From Paracoccaceae bacterium (lineage in GTDB: Bacteria > Pseudomonadota > Alphaproteobacteria > Rhodobacterales > Rhodobacteraceae): 60,413 nt of DNA. Each line of letters opens with the position of its first letter. Positions within the stretch are counted from its first letter, which is position 1. Positions 51,240 through 60,413 of the stretch are shown piece after piece. The stretch covers positions 1-60,413 of the forward strand of contig JAJEBQ010000055.1 in NCBI GenBank assembly GCA_022822495.1, read 5' to 3'. The position numbers were made by a program, and so were the translations under genes. A model generated the notes under the pieces. It did no database searches. It had not been told where the DNA came from and saw nothing but the letters and a program-made list of their open reading frames with translations.

Positions 51240-52592
51240 TTAGTGATCTAGGACTTCCAAAAGACAGACTAAGGCCTCAATACAAAAAGCTGTGGTCAAG
51301 GATTCTGATCCATGCACGAACTGGCCAAAGTTACCCCACATCAATTTTTGGTCTCCAAAGGCATAGAATTCGGGCCAACTTCCATCCTTGTGACGTGAAT
51401 TCAAGATGAATCTCGTATAATGTTCAGGGTCGATCAAGTCTAGCTGATTAACCGCATGCAATGAACTAATAGCTTGCGCCGTGAGAAGTACATTACCAAA
51501 ACCCACTTCAGGGTGATGGGATGCCATTATGTTTTCACCTAGAATTGGTCCCCAGTTGGCAAGCAAGGGGTTCGTTCGCTTGATTGCTCTGGCAATAGCG
51601 TAACAAATAGCAATAGTATCGGTATACCATTTGGAGGAATCATCCAGTTTCTTTTGTGCTAATAAGGATTCGAGCCAAATTTGAACATATTTGGTTTCCT
51701 CGCAATCGCCTAATAATGCAATGATATTGGCATTCACAACCGGATCCGCTTCCATGCGAAACTTTGACGCAACATCAGGTTCCTCTGGATTAAGTATCCA
51801 TGTATTGAATAATTTATCCTCATTCCGGTAAGTCAGGATCTTAGCCAAGTTTTGTCCAAGAGAAATCCACGGGTGATCTCCGACAACCAAGGCGCATAGG
51901 GTCGTGGAGTCCAAATCCGGGGGAAGGTGAAGATAATATCGCCACAAACCAGGAAACTCCATCATTGCAGTTATATACCGTTTTGCTGAAGCACAAAGCC
52001 GCTTGGCTTGGGGATGATCACAACTTTCCAAAGCCAAGGCAGCATACGCCGCTACAAACGGAGGTCTCTCGTAATGTCGAGGTACATCCGGTTTGGCAAT
52101 ATTGGTACGAATACAATACCAAGCCCCATGTTCGTTTATGGTTGTTTCCAGAAACTCCAAACCTTGGTCTATCGCTTGATAAATCCTTCTGATCAGAACT
52201 TTCCTGGAAACTTTATCCACCTTGGTCATCTTACGTTTCTTGACTGGGGATGGTACCGGATCGAACATTGTCCTCTGGAGAAATTCAAGTGAGGCCATTC
52301 CTGTTCGAGCGGCCTCTCTTTCCTCTTGTGAGGCCTGGCATTTTGGCGGAATGACCAAGTGGGAAATATTTTTAGCCTTTTCATGAATGTAAATTTCATG
52401 ATCATTGGGCAGTTTTATTTTTAACTCCTTTTCGATTGTTTCCTTCGGATTTACCAGCAGTCGAGATCTCAACGGGTCATCTTTTTCAGATTTATTAATG
52501 AGTATACTCAATGCCTTCATATTTTCCTTGGCTTGGGTATTTTTGACCGCGGTTTGCATGAAGGGATTTATGTGTTTTTCCTCTTGTGTCAC
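51240..52592 (-). CDS. NHLP-type RiPP leader domain fused to a terpene/squalene-cyclase-like alpha-alpha barrel
   Basis: A 450-residue protein with two parts. Residues about 26-98 form a nitrile-hydratase-like leader: LRSRLLVNPKETIEKELKIK, LPNDHEIYIHEKAKNISHLV, then IPPKCQASQEEREAARTG. This matches the precursor leader at 60168 block by block, including the residual terminal Gly. Residues about 130-450 look like a prenyltransferase/squalene-oxidase-repeat barrel: QGLEFLETTINEHGAWYC, LPPDLDSTTLCALV, DPVVNANIIALLG and a QW-like DGSW...SESLTTAFCIEAL. DLDSTT (226-231) resembles the DxDD acid motif of class II cyclases with the middle Asp kept. The gene overlaps the exporter gene by 4 nt. Function unknown; a maturation enzyme for the exported peptide is the best guess. 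Confidence 0.85.
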   Translation of the reverse strand: MTQEEKHINPFMQTAVKNTQAKENMKALSILINKSEKDDPLRSRLLVNPKETIEKELKIKLPNDHEIYIHEKAKNISHLVIPPKCQASQEEREAARTGMASLEFLQRTMFDPVPSPVKKRKMTKVDKVSRKVLIRRIYQAIDQGLEFLETTINEHGAWYCIRTNIAKPDVPRHYERPPFVAAYAALALESCDHPQAKRLCASAKRYITAMMEFPGLWRYYLHLPPDLDSTTLCALVVGDHPWISLGQNLAKILTYRNEDKLFNTWILNPEEPDVASKFRMEADPVVNANIIALLGDCEETKYVQIWLESLLAQKKLDDSSKWYTDTIAICYAIARAIKRTNPLLANWGPILGENIMASHHPEVGFGNVLLTAQAISSLHAVNQLDLIDPEHYTRFILNSRHKDGSWPEFYAFGDQKLMWGNFGQFVHGSESLTTAFCIEALVCLLEVLDH

Positions 52593-55534
52593 GTATCTTG
52601 CCTATCGATTAGATTTTTGAAGACGCCAGCACTTCCTTTAAGTTCATTAAAGGTGCCGGTTTGGACAACTTTACCGGCTTTAAGAACATAAATTCGATCT
52701 GCCTTCTCGAGCGTTGATAGCCGGTGTGCGATGACAATTCTTGTTGATAACAACTTGGCCAAATTTTGCATAACTTCGGCTTGATTTGTATTATCCAGCC
52801 AATTGGTTGCCTCATCAAGGAGCAATACTCTTGGATTCCCAAGGAGAGAACGGGCCAGGGCAATGCGTTGACTTTCACCTCCTGACAAAACGGCACCACT
52901 GGATCCTACTATTGTCATCAATCCCATGGGCATGGCCTTAATTTCATTTTCTATTTGCGCCGCCCGAGCCGAGTCCCATACCATTTCAGTTGTTGTTTCC
53001 TCTTGGTTGATGGCGATATTATCCCAAATATCCTGGGTATGCAGACGTATTGATTGAGGTACTGCCCCAACCTGCCGTCGTAGTTGCTTGAGATTTAGGT
53101 GACGTAAATCTTGACCATCATAGAGTATTGCCCCAGAAGTTGGTTGATCAATACCCAAAGCAAGTTTGAATAAGGTGCTTTTGCCCGCCCCGGATTCACC
53201 AGCTATTGCAATAAATTCTCCTGGTCTTGCATGAATGGTTACATCATCCAATATCAAGGGCCCGTCCTGTTCATACCGAAAGGAAACACGATCAAAAAGA
53301 ATATCTCCATTTAGATGCTCAACGGTCTCCATCCCATCAGATATTTCAGTTTCAGCCTTAAGAACAGGACTGAGTTGTTCCATAGTTTTAACACCCAGGG
53401 CCAAAGTTCCTATGGATTCTCCAAATTTGGTTGTAACCGAAAGAAAGGTCAAAAAAACAACATAAACAATGAGGAAGTCGCCGACAGGTGTGGATCTGTT
53501 GTTATCAATCGCTATAAAAAAGAATAATGTTGCTCCGGCTAAAAAGGGTAAAGCAACACTTAGTGCCTGTGCGTGCCGCTCCAGGGTTCCAAGTTCAACT
53601 TCAGCTTTTTTTTGACTGCGATAATCTCGCGCCCAAATAGCATAGGCCGATCCTTCCGCCCTTTCTATTCTAAGTTTAACAATACCCTCAATAATTTGAA
53701 ACAACTTGCTTGAGGTTTTTTGGGTCGCTCGAATGACCTTACCATGGGGCTCAATTTGCAGCAAGCCGACAAGCACCGTCAACACTAGGGCAACAATACA
53801 AAAACCGAGTGTAACCAGACCAAGGGTAAAATCGAAGAAACAGATAAAAATGATTATGGGCAGAATAAATATCAACGAAAGAAAATTTTCGATAAATTCC
53901 AGTTGTTCACCATTACGAAGATGTTGGAAAGTCATTCCAGCAATAGCAATTTCACTTGTTGGTCGATTATTCAGGGTACGACTAGGAAGACGCAAGACAC
54001 GATCCCAAAAGGCAGCCTCAAGGCGAGATATCGCCCGATCCTTAAGGTGCATCAGAGATTTGTCCTGAAGCACATGTAAAAGTGCCGCAATCACACCGAA
54101 AGCAATGACTGCCAAACTTATTGATAACAAACTGTCCTGATCTCCACCCTGGAAGATTAGGGCTACTGTTATTCCCAACGCCAAAGCAGGTACGATATTC
54201 AGTATACCTCCTGGTATACCTGCGATAATCATTCGTATAACATTACCTGTGGCGTGTTGAAACGCCATTTGAACTAAGTCGTAAGCTTGAACCTTCCTGT
54301 CAGGAAATGGGCGATAAAACATCCAGGCTTCCTGCTTCAATAAGGAAGCTTTTTGAGGATTCATATTTGTTTTGGTTTTCTTGACGGGATCAATCATATG
54401 ATAACGACCAAAAAGGCCAGGCAATAGTACCACCGGTTGGTCATCCACTTGCATGAAAGCCAGGATTGCATTGCCGTCGGTTTTCCACCATTGATCAGAG
54501 TTCCTCAGACTAATGCGTCGTGACCTGATACTGGAGGTGTCAAGGATGGCATTAAGGCCAATGGAATTCTGAGTTGGATCTGTACGAGAGGGGAACTTAA
54601 AATCTATACCTTCATGTTTCCCAATAATATTCATGGCATCAACAAGGGAAGTGTCGCCGATACGGAACGTTTTATCTATAGGCAAATCATAGATATTGAA
54701 TAATTGTTCCCTTGAAATTCTTTGGGCGGTGTTTCGGCTTGCCTTCCGAACCCGTTCAAGGTTGGCATCATCAACGAGAGCCAGCTTGCGGTTAAGATGT
54801 TCCAGGTAAAAGGCAAGGGAATGAAATCCTGACAACGCCTGATCCAACGACCCCATTTCAATCAAATCCAAAGTATTACGCAACGTAACGGAAGTATTTT
54901 GAAGAACAGTTAACCAGGTTGTCCAGGTCAGAGGTGTCATGGAGACTTCCAAGTCCTTTTTGTCAGAAAACTCAGCTCCATCAACAATTCCCATGAATAA
55001 ACTTGTGCCCTGAGGTAAACCGGAAAGCCAAAGCACTCCCCTTTGAATCGAAAAGGTTCCGGGCTCAATCGTTTGTTCTGAACCAGATTCAGTCAGCATT
55101 TGTGCACGGGGTAAGTGGGGGACAAATCTGGAAAGAACTTTAGAGAAGGCAAGAACCCAGGAATCGATCTTTTCTGCTACTTCTGAAGGCTTGACCTCGT
55201 TCAAACGAGAAAAGGGTATTTTTCTGAGTACAGTTCCAGTAATCCCCTTGGCGATGATAATAAATTTAGTTTCTTCGGTTTCTTGATTTTTATCGGCACC
55301 AACTCCAGGCATCATAAACCCTGCTTCACAATGCATGATATGCTGACGCAGGGACTGTTCTACCCCATCTCTGATTTCTACCAGAAAAAGATTGACACTG
55401 CCTCTCTCAATATACCAGACAGATTCCGGGTCATCCAGGGTTAGGGGCAGATTACCTGCACAGGGCACAACTTCCCCATAAGTTGTGGCAAGTTGGTATA
55501 GCGACGTATTTTCTGCTTCGGCTTGTATCATCAT
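52589..55534 (-). CDS. NHLM-system ABC transporter, second (non-peptidase) half
   Basis: A 981-residue protein matching the NHLM bacteriocin-system ABC transporter type that lacks a peptidase. A long N-terminal region, including a cyclic-nucleotide-binding-like sheet (ESVWYIERGSVNLFLVEIRD), precedes six membrane helices (IVPALALGITVALIFQGG onward) and an ABC domain: Walker A GESGAGKST, signature LSGGESQRIALARSLLG, Walker B VLLLDEATNWLD. It probably pairs with the C39 exporter or moves the modified peptide across the inner membrane. Four-nt overlaps on both sides tie it to its neighbours. Confidence 0.92.
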   Translation of the reverse strand: MMIQAEAENTSLYQLATTYGEVVPCAGNLPLTLDDPESVWYIERGSVNLFLVEIRDGVEQSLRQHIMHCEAGFMMPGVGADKNQETEETKFIIIAKGITGTVLRKIPFSRLNEVKPSEVAEKIDSWVLAFSKVLSRFVPHLPRAQMLTESGSEQTIEPGTFSIQRGVLWLSGLPQGTSLFMGIVDGAEFSDKKDLEVSMTPLTWTTWLTVLQNTSVTLRNTLDLIEMGSLDQALSGFHSLAFYLEHLNRKLALVDDANLERVRKASRNTAQRISREQLFNIYDLPIDKTFRIGDTSLVDAMNIIGKHEGIDFKFPSRTDPTQNSIGLNAILDTSSIRSRRISLRNSDQWWKTDGNAILAFMQVDDQPVVLLPGLFGRYHMIDPVKKTKTNMNPQKASLLKQEAWMFYRPFPDRKVQAYDLVQMAFQHATGNVIRMIIAGIPGGILNIVPALALGITVALIFQGGDQDSLLSISLAVIAFGVIAALLHVLQDKSLMHLKDRAISRLEAAFWDRVLRLPSRTLNNRPTSEIAIAGMTFQHLRNGEQLEFIENFLSLIFILPIIIFICFFDFTLGLVTLGFCIVALVLTVLVGLLQIEPHGKVIRATQKTSSKLFQIIEGIVKLRIERAEGSAYAIWARDYRSQKKAEVELGTLERHAQALSVALPFLAGATLFFFIAIDNNRSTPVGDFLIVYVVFLTFLSVTTKFGESIGTLALGVKTMEQLSPVLKAETEISDGMETVEHLNGDILFDRVSFRYEQDGPLILDDVTIHARPGEFIAIAGESGAGKSTLFKLALGIDQPTSGAILYDGQDLRHLNLKQLRRQVGAVPQSIRLHTQDIWDNIAINQEETTTEMVWDSARAAQIENEIKAMPMGLMTIVGSSGAVLSGGESQRIALARSLLGNPRVLLLDEATNWLDNTNQAEVMQNLAKLLSTRIVIAHRLSTLEKADRIYVLKAGKVVQTGTFNELKGSAGVFKNLIDRQDT

Positions 55535-57723
55535 CCTGACGTTACCAGTTTGTAGTAGGTGCCATTTTTATCAGCTATGAGTTCTTCATGCGTACCACGT
55601 TGGACTTCGTTTCCCTTGTCAAGAACAACTATCAAGTCACAATCGCGGATTGTACTTAACCTGTGTGCAATTATCAGGCATGTTACCCCACGACGACGAA
55701 GCGCATTGTCTATCTCGACTTCAACCAGAGGGTCAAGGGAACTTGTCGCTTCATCAAGGATAAGCATTGCCGGATTACCCACCAATGCACGGGCAATTTC
55801 CATGCGCTGGCGCTGGCCACCACTGAAGTTTGCACCACCTTCCTGTACATTGGTAGAATACCCTTGAGGCCTGATCAGAATTTCGTGGTGGATACAGGCA
55901 TCCCGTGCGGCAGAGAAGATAATGTCGTCGGACACCTCGGAATTCCATAAAGTGATGTTGTCCCGGACGGTAGCCGGAAAAAGGACTACATCCTGATCGA
56001 CCATCGAAAGTGACCGTCGTAGAACTTCAATAGGAATGTCTTCTCTTTTATGGTTGTCAAAAAGAATTTCGCCTTCCCATGGTTGAACTATACCCGTTAG
56101 AATTTTTGCGATTGTTGATTTGCCGGAACCGCTTGATCCAACCAGTGCAACCCGCTGACCAGGTTTGATCAGAAGGTTAAAGTCCTTGATTATGGGAGGA
56201 CGGCTTTTGTTAAAGCCAAATGAAATATTTTTTAACTCAAGTTGTCCCGCAAGTTGCAGGCTGCCCTTGAAGGTAACTATGGAATCAGAGCCCGTTTCCT
56301 GATGCTTGAACGTAATATCTTCGGGTGTATTGGTAATGTCATCTATACGTTGAAAATCGGTCTCAATGTCGGAACGCTTTTCGGTAAAATTCAGGATTTT
56401 GCTGATGGGAGACATGAACATTTCAGCCAGGATATAAAATCCCGCAAAGGTCCCCAGAGTCATTTCACCGGACAGAACCATACTTCCTCCAAGGTAGATT
56501 ATCGCAGCATTCCTGAAGGCAGCTATAATGAGGGGGAGAGCCGAGTTATAGTGAACGAATTCCATAAATAATTGGCGAGCTTTCAACTCCAGAGCCTGTT
56601 GTCCTGACCAGCGTCTGAAGAATCTGTCATCAGAACCTGTCATGCGCAAACTATCGACTTGGCTCAGCAATTGCATACCGAGACCCAACATCATTCCCTG
56701 TTCACGGCTCAGAATTTCACCCTTGTATCCTTTAAGAGAATTAAGGTATTTAATTAATCCCCAATGAACGAGACTTAGCAGGGCGACAATCAAGGCGAGC
56801 CATACATTCAACAGAAGCATCGCAACAAGCATTATGGCTGCAATCGTTATTTCGATGAGAAGGGCAATGTAATGTTCAGCCAGACGTTTTCCAACGCGGT
56901 CATTTGATGACACTCGGTCCATAATATCGCCGGACATACGACGTGTAAAAAATTCCATGGGTAACCGCAGCAGACGCGTGATACCCTGATCAAACCCAAC
57001 TATGGAGATCCGAATTGATATCCGTTGGAGCATACGGTGCTTGAATATTGTCATTAGGTAAGCAAATATGCCCCCCATAAGCAGGGCTGTGACAACAAAC
57101 CACCAGTTATTCTGACCTGCAAATATGGCATCAATAAAAATTTTAAGAGCGGCAGGGATAACAAGCAACAACAAACCCGTTAAAACTGCACAGGTCATAA
57201 TCATGGCTATATCGGTGCCCGTACCTGCGAGAAGAGGTTGCAATTTGTTGAATAATCCCAACTTACGACCACCTGTTTTGAAACCTTCACCACGCTTGAA
57301 TTCCAGAGCAATACCACTGTATCCCCTCAGAAAATCGTCCCTAGTGACAGCTCTGCGTCCAATAGCTGGGTCATTGAGAAAAAAATTGTCGTTTTCAAAT
57401 CCTTCCAGTACAACGAAATGGCTGTATTGCCAGAATATGATCAGTGGGAGCTTTAATTTGTTGAGTAGGTCTGCTCCAACCCCAAATCCTTTGCATTCAA
57501 GATCATAACCTTTGGCTGCCCGTAAAATGTTGGCTGCCGTGCATCCATCACGACTAACACTACACTCTTCTCGCAATACCGTCAGGGGCACCCACCGATC
57601 GTAATAGCCCAAAACCATACCTAGGCAGGCGGCACCACATTCCGTGGCATGCATTTGCAAAAGAACAGGGGTTGTAACGCGTTTATTCAATTCTGACATT
57701 GGTTCTAACGGCCTGTGGGTCAA
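55531..57723 (-). CDS. NHLM-system ABC exporter with N-terminal C39 leader peptidase
   Basis: A 730-residue exporter. The N-terminal C39 domain has catalytic Cys29 in LLQMHATECGAACLGMVLGY, His103 in YSHFVVLEGF and Asp119 in LNDPAIGRR. Membrane helices follow, then an ABC domain with Walker A GSSGSGKST, signature FSGGQRQRMEIARALVG and Walker B MLILDEATSSLD. C39 peptidases cut leader peptides after a Gly-Gly-type site during export; the precursor at 60168 has such a site (VSAG). It is the second gene of the export block and overlaps the next by 4 nt. Confidence 0.95.
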   Translation of the reverse strand: MTHRPLEPMSELNKRVTTPVLLQMHATECGAACLGMVLGYYDRWVPLTVLREECSVSRDGCTAANILRAAKGYDLECKGFGVGADLLNKLKLPLIIFWQYSHFVVLEGFENDNFFLNDPAIGRRAVTRDDFLRGYSGIALEFKRGEGFKTGGRKLGLFNKLQPLLAGTGTDIAMIMTCAVLTGLLLLVIPAALKIFIDAIFAGQNNWWFVVTALLMGGIFAYLMTIFKHRMLQRISIRISIVGFDQGITRLLRLPMEFFTRRMSGDIMDRVSSNDRVGKRLAEHYIALLIEITIAAIMLVAMLLLNVWLALIVALLSLVHWGLIKYLNSLKGYKGEILSREQGMMLGLGMQLLSQVDSLRMTGSDDRFFRRWSGQQALELKARQLFMEFVHYNSALPLIIAAFRNAAIIYLGGSMVLSGEMTLGTFAGFYILAEMFMSPISKILNFTEKRSDIETDFQRIDDITNTPEDITFKHQETGSDSIVTFKGSLQLAGQLELKNISFGFNKSRPPIIKDFNLLIKPGQRVALVGSSGSGKSTIAKILTGIVQPWEGEILFDNHKREDIPIEVLRRSLSMVDQDVVLFPATVRDNITLWNSEVSDDIIFSAARDACIHHEILIRPQGYSTNVQEGGANFSGGQRQRMEIARALVGNPAMLILDEATSSLDPLVEVEIDNALRRRGVTCLIIAHRLSTIRDCDLIVVLDKGNEVQRGTHEELIADKNGTYYKLVTSG

Positions 57724-57750: not shown

Positions 57751-58305
57751 TTAACTCAAAAGGAAATATTGGAATGGAGAGACGGTGCCAACCTGGAAAT
57801 CAATCTGGCATTCCTTGTCCAGCATTGAGGCATTGTTAATCTTATCTACTAGGGTAATTCCAATTTTATGGAGATTCCCCCCTGACAGATCAGCAATTAC
57901 AGGTATGAGGTCTGGTTGCATGATGGTATTTTGGGATATGAGAGTTATAACCCCATTATGGGTACTTTTAGTATCTGACTCCCCGTGACAGATCAGATTG
58001 GCTGGAGTTCCAACAATAATTTGGGGGGCGTCTTCTTTCCTGATCCAAACATATACTTCCACTGATTTTAACTGATTGTCGCTATCTGAAGCAGTGTCTA
58101 CTTCAACGAGCATTGCCTTGCTGGTAAGGACTTGCTTTATATCACCGAAATAGAGCCAGAAACCAATAATAAGGAATGCAAGTGTAATGGCCATGATAAG
58201 CAGGCGTTCGCCAGGAGTGGAAATGGTAAGTAATTTATCGTGTTGATCACGCTCCGCCTTAGACTCTGCTACTGTATTATGAAAAGAATTCAGATTACCA
58301 AACAT
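57751..58305 (-). CDS. Short HlyD-like NHLM secretion (adaptor) protein
   Basis: A 184-residue membrane-fusion protein. A cytoplasmic tail and one membrane helix (LLIMAITLAFLIIGFWLYFG, about residues 34-53) lead into a periplasmic beta-barrel (VYVWIRKEDAPQIIVGTPAN, then THNGVITLISQNTIM). NHLM secretion proteins are usually about 400 residues and carry a long coiled-coil hairpin and lipoyl domain between the helix and the barrel. Both are absent here, while start and end look intact. It could still link the inner-membrane exporter to the periplasm, but not reach a TolC tunnel in the usual way. Confidence 0.72.
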   Translation of the reverse strand: MFGNLNSFHNTVAESKAERDQHDKLLTISTPGERLLIMAITLAFLIIGFWLYFGDIKQVLTSKAMLVEVDTASDSDNQLKSVEVYVWIRKEDAPQIIVGTPANLICHGESDTKSTHNGVITLISQNTIMQPDLIPVIADLSGGNLHKIGITLVDKINNASMLDKECQIDFQVGTVSPFQYFLLS

Positions 58306-58598: not shown

Positions 58599-59891
58599 TT
58601 ATCCCATGGGGTAACAACCAAGGCCTTGTGAAATCTGGGCATAACTCGTTAGCGGCAGGATCCTGTTTCGATCTAACTCGGCCGATTCAACAACAGGCTT
58701 TTTTAACAACTCAAGCATTATCTTGAATTTTTTCAAAGCCTTTTTTTCGCAATCTCCATCATATTCCATCAGGTGGTGCTGAGGCCAAACTTTGTTTTTT
58801 GCAAAGCGCCAAAATTCAGTGTCATAATTAGAACCACAACTGTAATGCCAACCAACAAAAAGGCCGAATCCCAACATGCTGCTGATCAGAAAGTTGTTTA
58901 CGGCACCAATATCACCTTGCCAATATTCAACGGGACGATTTTGCCGCATTTGAAGTACCATTCCAATTTGAAGTTGGGCAGAAACGATCGCTGTAGCTTC
59001 GAGCGGTTCCATAAATGCTCCGGCGTTACCTATGCGGGCTATGGATCCTTCATAAATATGCCTGTGTACAAAGTTTGGGAAGTGCAGAATTGATCTTTGT
59101 TCAAAATCCTTGACTCCGTCAATCGCTAGCAAGTCATCAAAATCAGACTGCACCTCAGCAATATCCGAGCAATCACGATTGAATATATAGCCATAGGAGG
59201 TGTGGGTTGTCAACGGTATGACAAAAACCCAACCATGAGGCCTGGCAACTGCACGTGTATAGGTTGGTGGTAGATAGGGGTTACCATTATGGTTTATAAT
59301 CGAAGGACATCGGCGAATAATGGCTGTGTTGGTCGGTATAAATGGAATGCTAATATGTTCTTCCTGATTGATTTCCTTGGGGAATCCTCTGGCATCGAAT
59401 ACCAGGTCATAATCTTCAGCCTGTAAATTCTCAAATTCTATTCTTGCCCCGCCCTCTCCCTCAATGTTGGATATGCTAAGAACCTTGGCATCAATGTATT
59501 GCGCGTTTGAGGCCTCCTGAAGCAGTTCGGTTATGTTATCAGCTGAGAGATGATATGAATATCCAACTTGCTGTGGGGTAAAAAAGTGGGTAAAGTTGTG
59601 ATTCATTTTACCCCACCCTTCGAAGCTCACCCCATATTTGCGTGTTGCATTCAAGCGCATCTGGATATTTTCATGAGGTATAGTTGTTAATTCGTGCAAT
59701 TGGGTGACGAGTGTTGGCCATCCACCTTCTCCAACACCAATAACCGGTATCTTTGAATCATATATATGGTGAAGTTCAAAGTCCTGCGTTTTAGCAAATT
59801 TACTGGTAACTGATGCCGCAGCAAGCGAACCAGCTGTACCTCTTCCTACAACTGCAATTTTGTTTATCTGATTATTTTCAGTTATCGGCAT
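58599..59891 (-). CDS. Tryptophan-halogenase-like flavin-dependent enzyme
   Basis: A 430-residue protein of the flavin-dependent tryptophan halogenase family. The FAD motif is GRGTAG at 16-21, VIGVGEGGWPTL follows, the catalytic Lys is K85 (ATRKYGVSFEGWG) and the catalytic Glu is E298 (FMEPLEATAI). The usual W-x-W-x-I-P halogenase motif reads WVFVIP at 221-226, with Phe for the second Trp. It is about 80-100 residues shorter than free-tryptophan halogenases. In this RiPP locus it probably halogenates or oxidises a residue of the precursor core. Divergent from the precursor gene. Confidence 0.85.
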   Translation of the reverse strand: MPITENNQINKIAVVGRGTAGSLAAASVTSKFAKTQDFELHHIYDSKIPVIGVGEGGWPTLVTQLHELTTIPHENIQMRLNATRKYGVSFEGWGKMNHNFTHFFTPQQVGYSYHLSADNITELLQEASNAQYIDAKVLSISNIEGEGGARIEFENLQAEDYDLVFDARGFPKEINQEEHISIPFIPTNTAIIRRCPSIINHNGNPYLPPTYTRAVARPHGWVFVIPLTTHTSYGYIFNRDCSDIAEVQSDFDDLLAIDGVKDFEQRSILHFPNFVHRHIYEGSIARIGNAGAFMEPLEATAIVSAQLQIGMVLQMRQNRPVEYWQGDIGAVNNFLISSMLGFGLFVGWHYSCGSNYDTEFWRFAKNKVWPQHHLMEYDGDCEKKALKKFKIMLELLKKPVVESAELDRNRILPLTSYAQISQGLGCYPMG

Positions 59892-60167: not shown

Positions 60168-60413
60168 ATGAGAAGTGGTGATGAAATGCTGAAACAGATT
60201 GTGGACAAGTCTGCAGTCGATGCGACTTTCCGCCAACAACTGTTGGCAGAACCCAAGGGTACTATTTGCTCGGAATTGGGCATAACCATGCCTGAATCCA
60301 TGTCCATCCATGTCCATGAGAGTGACATGCAGAGTATTCATATTGCACTACCCCCTGATCCAAATATTTCAGAGGAACAATTGGAAGCAGTCTCAGCCGG
60401 ATTGTGTTGTTGC
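60168..60413 (+). CDS. NHLP-leader RiPP precursor peptide, 3' end outside window
   Basis: An 82-codon frame open at the right edge. The leader is nitrile-hydratase-like: DEMLKQIVDKSAVDATFRQQ, LLAEPKGTICSELGITMPES, MSIHVHESDMQSIHIALPPD, then SEEQLEAVSAG. It ends at Gly78 in VSAG, the usual C39 cleavage site. The core begins LCCC and continues out of view; Cys runs right after the leader are common in thiazole-forming NHLP peptides. ATG at 60168 has an ideal ribosome binding site. It is the probable substrate of the halogenase, the cyclase-like protein and the C39 exporter. Its full core sequence is the main missing information. Confidence 0.93.
   Translation, partial: MRSGDEMLKQIVDKSAVDATFRQQLLAEPKGTICSELGITMPESMSIHVHESDMQSIHIALPPDPNISEEQLEAVSAGLCCC

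Follow-up and report, generated by a model that had tools for sequence, protein, structure and literature searches.

One protein combines a leader-like domain with a predicted class II terpene-cyclase domain

The stretch of DNA analyzed here (the window; 60,413 nucleotides, contig JAJEBQ010000055.1 of the Paracoccaceae bacterium assembly GCA_022822495.1) carries on its minus strand an open reading frame with a GTG start (51240..52592) for a 450-residue protein, in which an NHLP leader-like domain precedes a predicted class II terpene cyclase. A first-pass annotation had described the N-terminus as leader-like, the remainder as class II cyclase-like and the setting as that of a ribosomally synthesized and post-translationally modified peptide (RiPP), and all three descriptions were borne out. 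The leader-like domain (residues 25-98, 52299..52520, minus strand), which ends in EREAARTG, matches the NHLP leader model TIGR03793 across residues 30-86 (E 2.8e-8, 33.5 bits, below the curated cut-off of 50.9). The match is stronger in relatives (best 1.6e-15; 55.4 bits in relative P0102) and reaches E <= 1e-3 in all 64 scanned members of the fused family (alignment A2), and a 25-sequence profile retrieves nitrile hydratase alpha chains together with the solved chimera of the NHLP MprE7, 8tb1. The model of the fused protein has helices at residues 19-34, 39-47 and 49-57; a solved NHLP starts as a three-helix bundle (PMC10858898; this and the other articles given by PMC number are cited from excerpts).

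What follows the domain is about 350 residues of enzyme, not a short core peptide behind an AG or GG junction. We aligned the window protein with the best 120 of 1036 relatives returned by a protein search, these 120 being 427-466 residues long and 50-93% identical. The junction is T-G in 101 of the 121 proteins, A-G in 17 and G-G in one. At the position of a precursor's core lies a conserved segment, S-L-E-F-L...T-M-F-D-P-V-P (residues 99-116, 52245..52298, minus strand), in which S101, L105, P112 and P114 are invariant across the alignment.

Residues 130-450 (51243..52205, minus strand) are predicted from a modelled fold to be a class II terpene cyclase: the model is an alpha/alpha barrel as in class II cyclases, and its best solved matches are drimenol synthase and MstE. 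By Pfam SQHop the fused protein scores below the gathering threshold (14.8 bits against 26.2) and relative P0079 above it (28.5 against 26.1). The counterpart of the catalytic DxDD/DxDTT motif is a conserved DLDST (residues 226-230, 51903..51917, minus strand), whose middle Asp, D228, falls opposite the mutated residue, now Asn, in the D333N chain of AsDMS. Two further motifs on the same strand stand out in the alignment, DPVVNAN (residues 283-289, 51726..51746), which is invariant in all 121 proteins, and DGSW (residues 403-406, 51375..51386), with D in 120, G in 121, S in 117 and W in 121. AsDMS/drimenol synthase and AstC are closest by profile and fold, with DLDTT in 9mhs and a shared DPVV in AstC; unlike the fused protein, they have a HAD part in front (by record names) and a farnesyl diphosphate ligand. 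MstE also differs, being a monodomain class II cyclase that lacks a leader domain and uses a small-molecule substrate.

The fusion recurs in other loci from many phyla: in 80 of the 80 relatives fetched, the cyclase gene begins with a part to which the precursor of the window matches. These loci, many of them cut by contig ends, are the best 80 of 169 confirmed when species genomes of bacteria and archaea were scanned, and were picked by similarity to the query. By record they belong to Rhodobacteraceae, other alpha-, gamma- and deltaproteobacteria, Gemmatimonadetes, Nitrospira, Acidobacteria, Latescibacterota, Opitutales and others. Judging from isolate names (one record is Spongia_Bin9) and from the literature on the srp cluster, the hosts would mostly be sponge symbionts; a 2021 JACS article by Nguyen et al. 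is said, by its title, to report the srp proteusin cluster as highly distributed in sponge microbiomes. Because both the 80 loci and the 121 proteins were chosen by similarity, a leaderless relative could hide among the remaining relatives. A scan of the genome contigs with the single protein returned no relative. Partial cyclase matches were seen in two other genomes of the phylum sample, G305 and G266, and one locus in G305 (L009) holds a leaderless 409-residue relative with DMDDTA, beside genes that appear by eye P450-like and glycosyltransferase-like.

The fused gene lies in an srp-type proteusin cluster

Directly upstream on the minus strand is an NHLM ABC2 export ATPase/permease gene (52589..55534; TIGR03797 2e-183, under the equivalog cut-off), the end of which shares four bases, GTGA, with the start of the fused gene. 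When the possible start nearest the ABC2 stop is used, the fused gene can begin within 300 base pairs of that stop in 39 of 42 loci; the other 38 of the 80 could not be measured. Next on the same strand come an NHLM ABC1 gene with a C39 peptidase domain (55531..57723; TIGR03796 8e-246, under the equivalog cut-off; PF03412 1.5e-32), a gene for a 184-residue protein without a useful family match, provisionally labelled HlyD-like (57751..58305; relatives in 57 of the 80 loci), and a gene for an SrpI-like tryptophan halogenase (58599..59891; PF04820 4e-41). The plus strand carries, divergent from these genes, an SrpE-like precursor gene (60168..60413; TIGR03793 64.9 bits) that the contig end truncates after ...SAGLCCC. 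Two other contigs of the genome, C36 and C47, both begin with ...SAGLCCCW and a stop codon, overlapping the precursor's end; the end of the window contig, C13, overlaps the two starts equally, by 131 bases inside the precursor gene. The C13-C36 join is favored over C47 on account of the gene order in a relative (L014), and C36 holds the genome's sole YcaO match.

SrpE ends in LCCCW; SrpC (YcaO) is responsible for azoline formation in it and SrpI for bromination of its Trp (PMC10286304, PMC10858898). The core ends in LCCCW in 59 of 64 precursors of the relatives, a count made after one spurious pattern match (L043) was removed; the pattern used to find precursors required a CCC core preceded by G at -1 with either A or G at -2, which makes conservation at these positions partly a product of the search. 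K85 and P106-Q107-Q108-V109 of the window halogenase correspond, offset by one, to K84 and P105-Q106-Q107-V108 of SrpI (PMC10858898). By its LCCCW core, SrpI-like halogenase and YcaO, the last on another contig, the window locus is an srp-type proteusin cluster, and it resembles the described one in the halogenase loop and Lys, the NHLP leader and the occurrence in unrelated bacterial hosts as well. The excerpts of PMC10858898 and PMC10286304 describe the srp cluster with azolines and bromination only, and mention neither a prenyltransferase nor a leader-fused cyclase. Among the 80 loci, an exporter match (threshold 80 bits) was found in 74 and a separate LCCCW precursor in 59.

A predicted prenyltransferase accompanies the cyclase

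Another protein of the cluster, which we call F2 (about 370 residues), is not matched by any Pfam or NCBIfam family at E <= 0.01. Its model, built from 39 sequences, has a predicted local distance difference test score (pLDDT) of 90.4 and alternates helix pairs with strand pairs, which is the alpha-beta-beta-alpha (ABBA) unit of the prenyltransferase barrel. All 50 matches listed by Foldseek were prenyltransferases, those with acceptors named in their titles including enzymes for phenazine, indole, Trp, Tyr and His, and VIA-align scored MpnD at 17.0, CymD at 16.1 and FgaPT2 at 15.3. F2 is thus predicted, on its modelled fold, to be an ABBA prenyltransferase.

F2 was found in all 42 loci with full flanks and in 76 of 78 distinct cyclase-carrying genomes; among 398 genomes from the phylum to which the window belongs, its own genome alone has F2. 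For 69 of the 80 cyclases it is on the same contig, never more than 8.9 kilobases (kb) away and within 300 base pairs in 12. The two are not one polypeptide: in the window's genome they are on separate contigs, and the open frames listed for the 12 closest pairs are too short for both.

F2-type genes also occur in other arrangements. In two stretches (L100:1281-3306 and L104:336-2049), an NHLP precursor with the core (S/T)Q(S/T)WQDFANAWNSLNQNS is immediately followed by an F2-type prenyltransferase, and no cyclase match was found within the 10-12 kb examined. Another (L101) holds two prenyltransferases, three NHLP-like open reading frames, two presumably CmcJ-like genes, exporters and a distant halogenase match. 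On the contig of a first srp set, a second srp-like set (L103, G434:C28) comprises two tandem diverged F2-type prenyltransferases, YcaO, a desaturase-family gene and a precursor ending in RCCC, with no cyclase match in the stretch.

Sister cyclases outside srp clusters lack the leader

Five more distant cyclases (205-237 bits; L102, L105, L106, L107 and L108) were found in the same genomes; three weak matches (G463:C90, G470:C22 and G468:C3) were not counted as sisters. None of the five has a leader, and the idea that residues 26-98 are an integral part of the barrel, which the first-pass annotation had considered, was set aside on these grounds. Each sister stretch has a separate NHLP precursor, and both exporters are present in four of the five. 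The precursors end in GDW, DSW, GGW or DSY, with one ending in GCWSYG, and an F2-type prenyltransferase lies within 45 base pairs of the cyclase in four of the five. From this combination, prenyltransferase, cyclase and an aromatic core end appear to travel together. The acid motif is DLDST in three sisters, EVDST in L107 and DLDD in L108. Four sister stretches (L102, L105, L106 and L107) also encode a protein of about 290-310 residues without a Pfam match, which we presume to be CmcJ-like; a family search with it returned no family name.

The fused leader has lost the signals that partner enzymes read

Counted back from the Gly, all 64 precursors have hydrophobic residues at three positions, I, L or M at -12, L or M at -7 and I or V at -4. 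The fused leaders were located by a pattern with E-R that all 121 proteins matched. They share G at -1, R at -7 and E at -8 (each 121/121); 120 of them carry A at -4, and 101 carry T at -2; the E and R, E91 and R92 of the window protein, are invariant in a pattern-free alignment as well. The L(X)4L motif is thereby lost, Arg replacing its second Leu in all 121. This motif is the only leader element that SrpI needs, the YcaO enzyme MprC needs it together with the alpha1 face (PMC10858898, PMC12455567), and it has been placed in C39 binding (PMC12715784).

We compared leader surfaces at the 56 loci with both a precursor and a fused copy, from which four of the 80 loci (L032, L046, L048 and L091) were absent as they had no match to the fused-leader pattern. 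The precursors conserve the alpha1 face and the beta-hairpin loop, both of which vary among the fused copies, whereas buried-looking positions are largely conserved in both groups. In a tree that took every second of the 56 loci, the 28 fused leaders form one branch apart from all precursors tested (support 100/98, with warnings of few columns and long branches), and recent capture of each locus's own leader was set aside on this basis. Given the loss of signals, the retained buried positions and the single branch, we infer that the fused leader is an old leader of one origin that has kept its fold, is uncleaved and is no longer read as a substrate. It is probably retained as a tether; internal support for the enzyme is the other role that these sequences suggest.

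The first-pass annotation had offered three roles for the leader, which fare unequally. Cleavage by the C39 peptidase loses ground given Arg -7, Ala -4 and mostly Thr -2, as does substrate mimicry through L(X)4L, the motif being lost; since the residues read by partner enzymes are gone, both are unlikely. Docking splits in two: through the alpha1 face on YcaO it is disfavored by the variability of that face in the fused copies, and through a new interface it is possible. Set beside the leaders of MprE7 and SrpE, the fused leader shares the profile match and the helical start but has no core, no L(X)4L and mostly no AG or GG junction, and an enzyme follows.

A proposed route to terpene-bearing peptides

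We propose that the gene encodes a leader-fused class II cyclase that closes the rings of a prenyl chain attached by F2 to the C-terminal Trp of the precursor in an srp-type pathway, a reading that we regard as fairly probable. It builds on the fusion and its conservation, the srp-type setting, the conservation of DLDST and the presence of F2 in nearly all genomes with the cyclase, all of which are read from sequence, and the order of prenylation and then cyclization is proposed by analogy with NctPC and ChrPC. F2 would attach the chain to the Trp of SrpE ...LCCCW; D228 would protonate the far end of the chain and start cyclization; and the leader-fused enzyme would close the rings on the Trp-borne chain, leaving a peptide that carries a cyclized terpene. 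The product would also be halogenated, might be hydroxylated by the desaturase-family protein and would be exported by the C39/ABC pair. The leader may tether the cyclase to its pathway partners or its substrate, with the E-R...T-G and SLE...DPxP segments forming a new interface; this is the least certain step. The wider picture, in which srp clusters make terpenoid peptides with three azolines and a C-terminal bromotryptophan bearing a polycyclic terpene, by way of a separately encoded ABBA prenyltransferase together with a class II cyclase whose ancient leader, fused once, kept its fold, lost its recognition and cleavage signals and serves as a built-in tether, is offered tentatively, at a little under even chances.

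A number of observations weigh against the proposal. The identity of F2 rests on its predicted fold, as a PDB sequence search gave no match to solved chains at E <= 5; two of the 78 cyclase-carrying genomes lack F2, and 11 of the 80 cyclases have none on their contig, perhaps through incomplete assembly. The window itself lacks the F2, YcaO and desaturase-family genes, which are at the start of contig C36, and their linkage depends on the gene order of a single relative. Six of the 80 loci have no exporter match, 21 have no separate precursor within the flanks examined, and a halogenase is present in 49. The proposed terpene site is the same Trp that SrpI brominates, and sister L107 has no DxD. 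Residues 61-130 of the model have pLDDT block means of 54-69 and the placement of the leader relative to the barrel is of low confidence, so that the proposed leader interface is without structural support; the lower surface conservation of the fused leader could also be plain relaxation.

Other explanations divide over the substrate of the cyclase and the role of its leader. Like drimenyl diphosphate synthases, the cyclase might use a free prenyl diphosphate as its substrate, with F2 then moving the finished rings onto the peptide. In favor of this, AsDMS/drimenol synthase provides the nearest solved structures, some entries with farnesyl pyrophosphate bound, and DLDST is closest to their DLDTT; we consider this order of events unlikely, if worth keeping in view. 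Were the leader to imitate a substrate, so that the cyclase docks where YcaO, halogenase or C39 normally binds a leader, the retained profile match, the largely conserved buried positions and the proximity of the fused gene to ABC2 would fit; we judge this rather improbable with L(X)4L lost and the alpha1 face variable, both needed by MprC and the motif by SrpI, with the limit that the data are for MprC, not SrpC (PMC12455567, PMC10858898).

The adjoining NHLM transporter genes and the invariant Gly at -1 could also speak for an export signal, the C39/ABC pair cutting the leader or carrying the enzyme out. Residues -7, -4 and mostly -2 are unlike those of all 64 precursors, the motif placed in C39 binding (PMC12715784) is missing and the conserved segment past the Gly argues for an intact protein, and we hold export to be very improbable. 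A role for the cyclase domain in binding or as a chaperone, without catalysis, which the Ser at the last acid of DxDD might indicate, is hardly to be credited given the similar DLDTT of drimenol synthase and the invariance of D228 and many other residues.

The proposed cyclization has a precedent. Hubrich et al. (2024, known to us by title) reportedly characterize NctPC and ChrPC as prenyltransferase-terpene cyclase RiPP maturases. In a 2026 review (PMC13290415), their P part is described as prenylating a peptide Trp and their C part as cyclizing the chain, the C part of NctPC resembling MstE. The first-pass annotation had taken a cyclase-fold enzyme acting on a RiPP to be new, which it is not. 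If our proposal is correct, Trp prenylation would likewise be followed by ring closure on a terpene-cyclase domain; unlike NctPC and ChrPC, which have P and C in one protein, the window cyclase is separate from the predicted prenyltransferase and carries a leader domain. The system would be RiPP prenyltransferase/terpene-cyclase maturation in another form, with chemistry that is not of a new kind. The finding is more telling than first stated because its context supplies a likely substrate; the predicted prenyltransferase that would make this substrate is on another contig and so was outside the view of the first-pass annotation. Open-access titles and abstract openings, together with the excerpts consulted, gave no description of an NHLP-cyclase fusion or of a prenyltransferase in srp clusters, and no text consulted describes an srp end product; Nguyen et al. 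2021 may list these genes. If the proposal is right, mass searches for the srp product should allow for a C15 or C20 terpene on top of the expected formula, and the fused protein would offer a way to study how leaders direct enzymes. It would contain, to our knowledge, the first RiPP leader permanently fused to a tailoring enzyme with its own recognition signals lost.

Further genes in srp-type clusters

The desaturase-family protein on contig C36 (L095:3921-6290; FA_desaturase 6e-27), which we take to be AlkB-like, has a second half that weakly matches the GlnE adenylyltransferase (9.5e-5), and relatives occur in 34 of the 42 loci with full flanks. At other contig ends of the genome (G000:C42:96943-97161, L002; G000:C47:1-141, L005) lies another SrpE-like gene, likewise with an LCCCW core; no srp enzyme gene was recognized in the preceding 15 kb (L096) or in the first 12 kb downstream of the C47 start (L094). 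Five loci (L072, L073, L074, L077 and L066) have second precursors beside the LCCCW one, with cores MCCCGI (four) or WCCCGN (one) that lack a C-terminal Trp. Two further NHLP matches in the window's genome (L097:4999-5646, G000:C48) fall not in a leader but in an apparently real nitrile hydratase alpha chain, presumably so by its CTLCSC motif.
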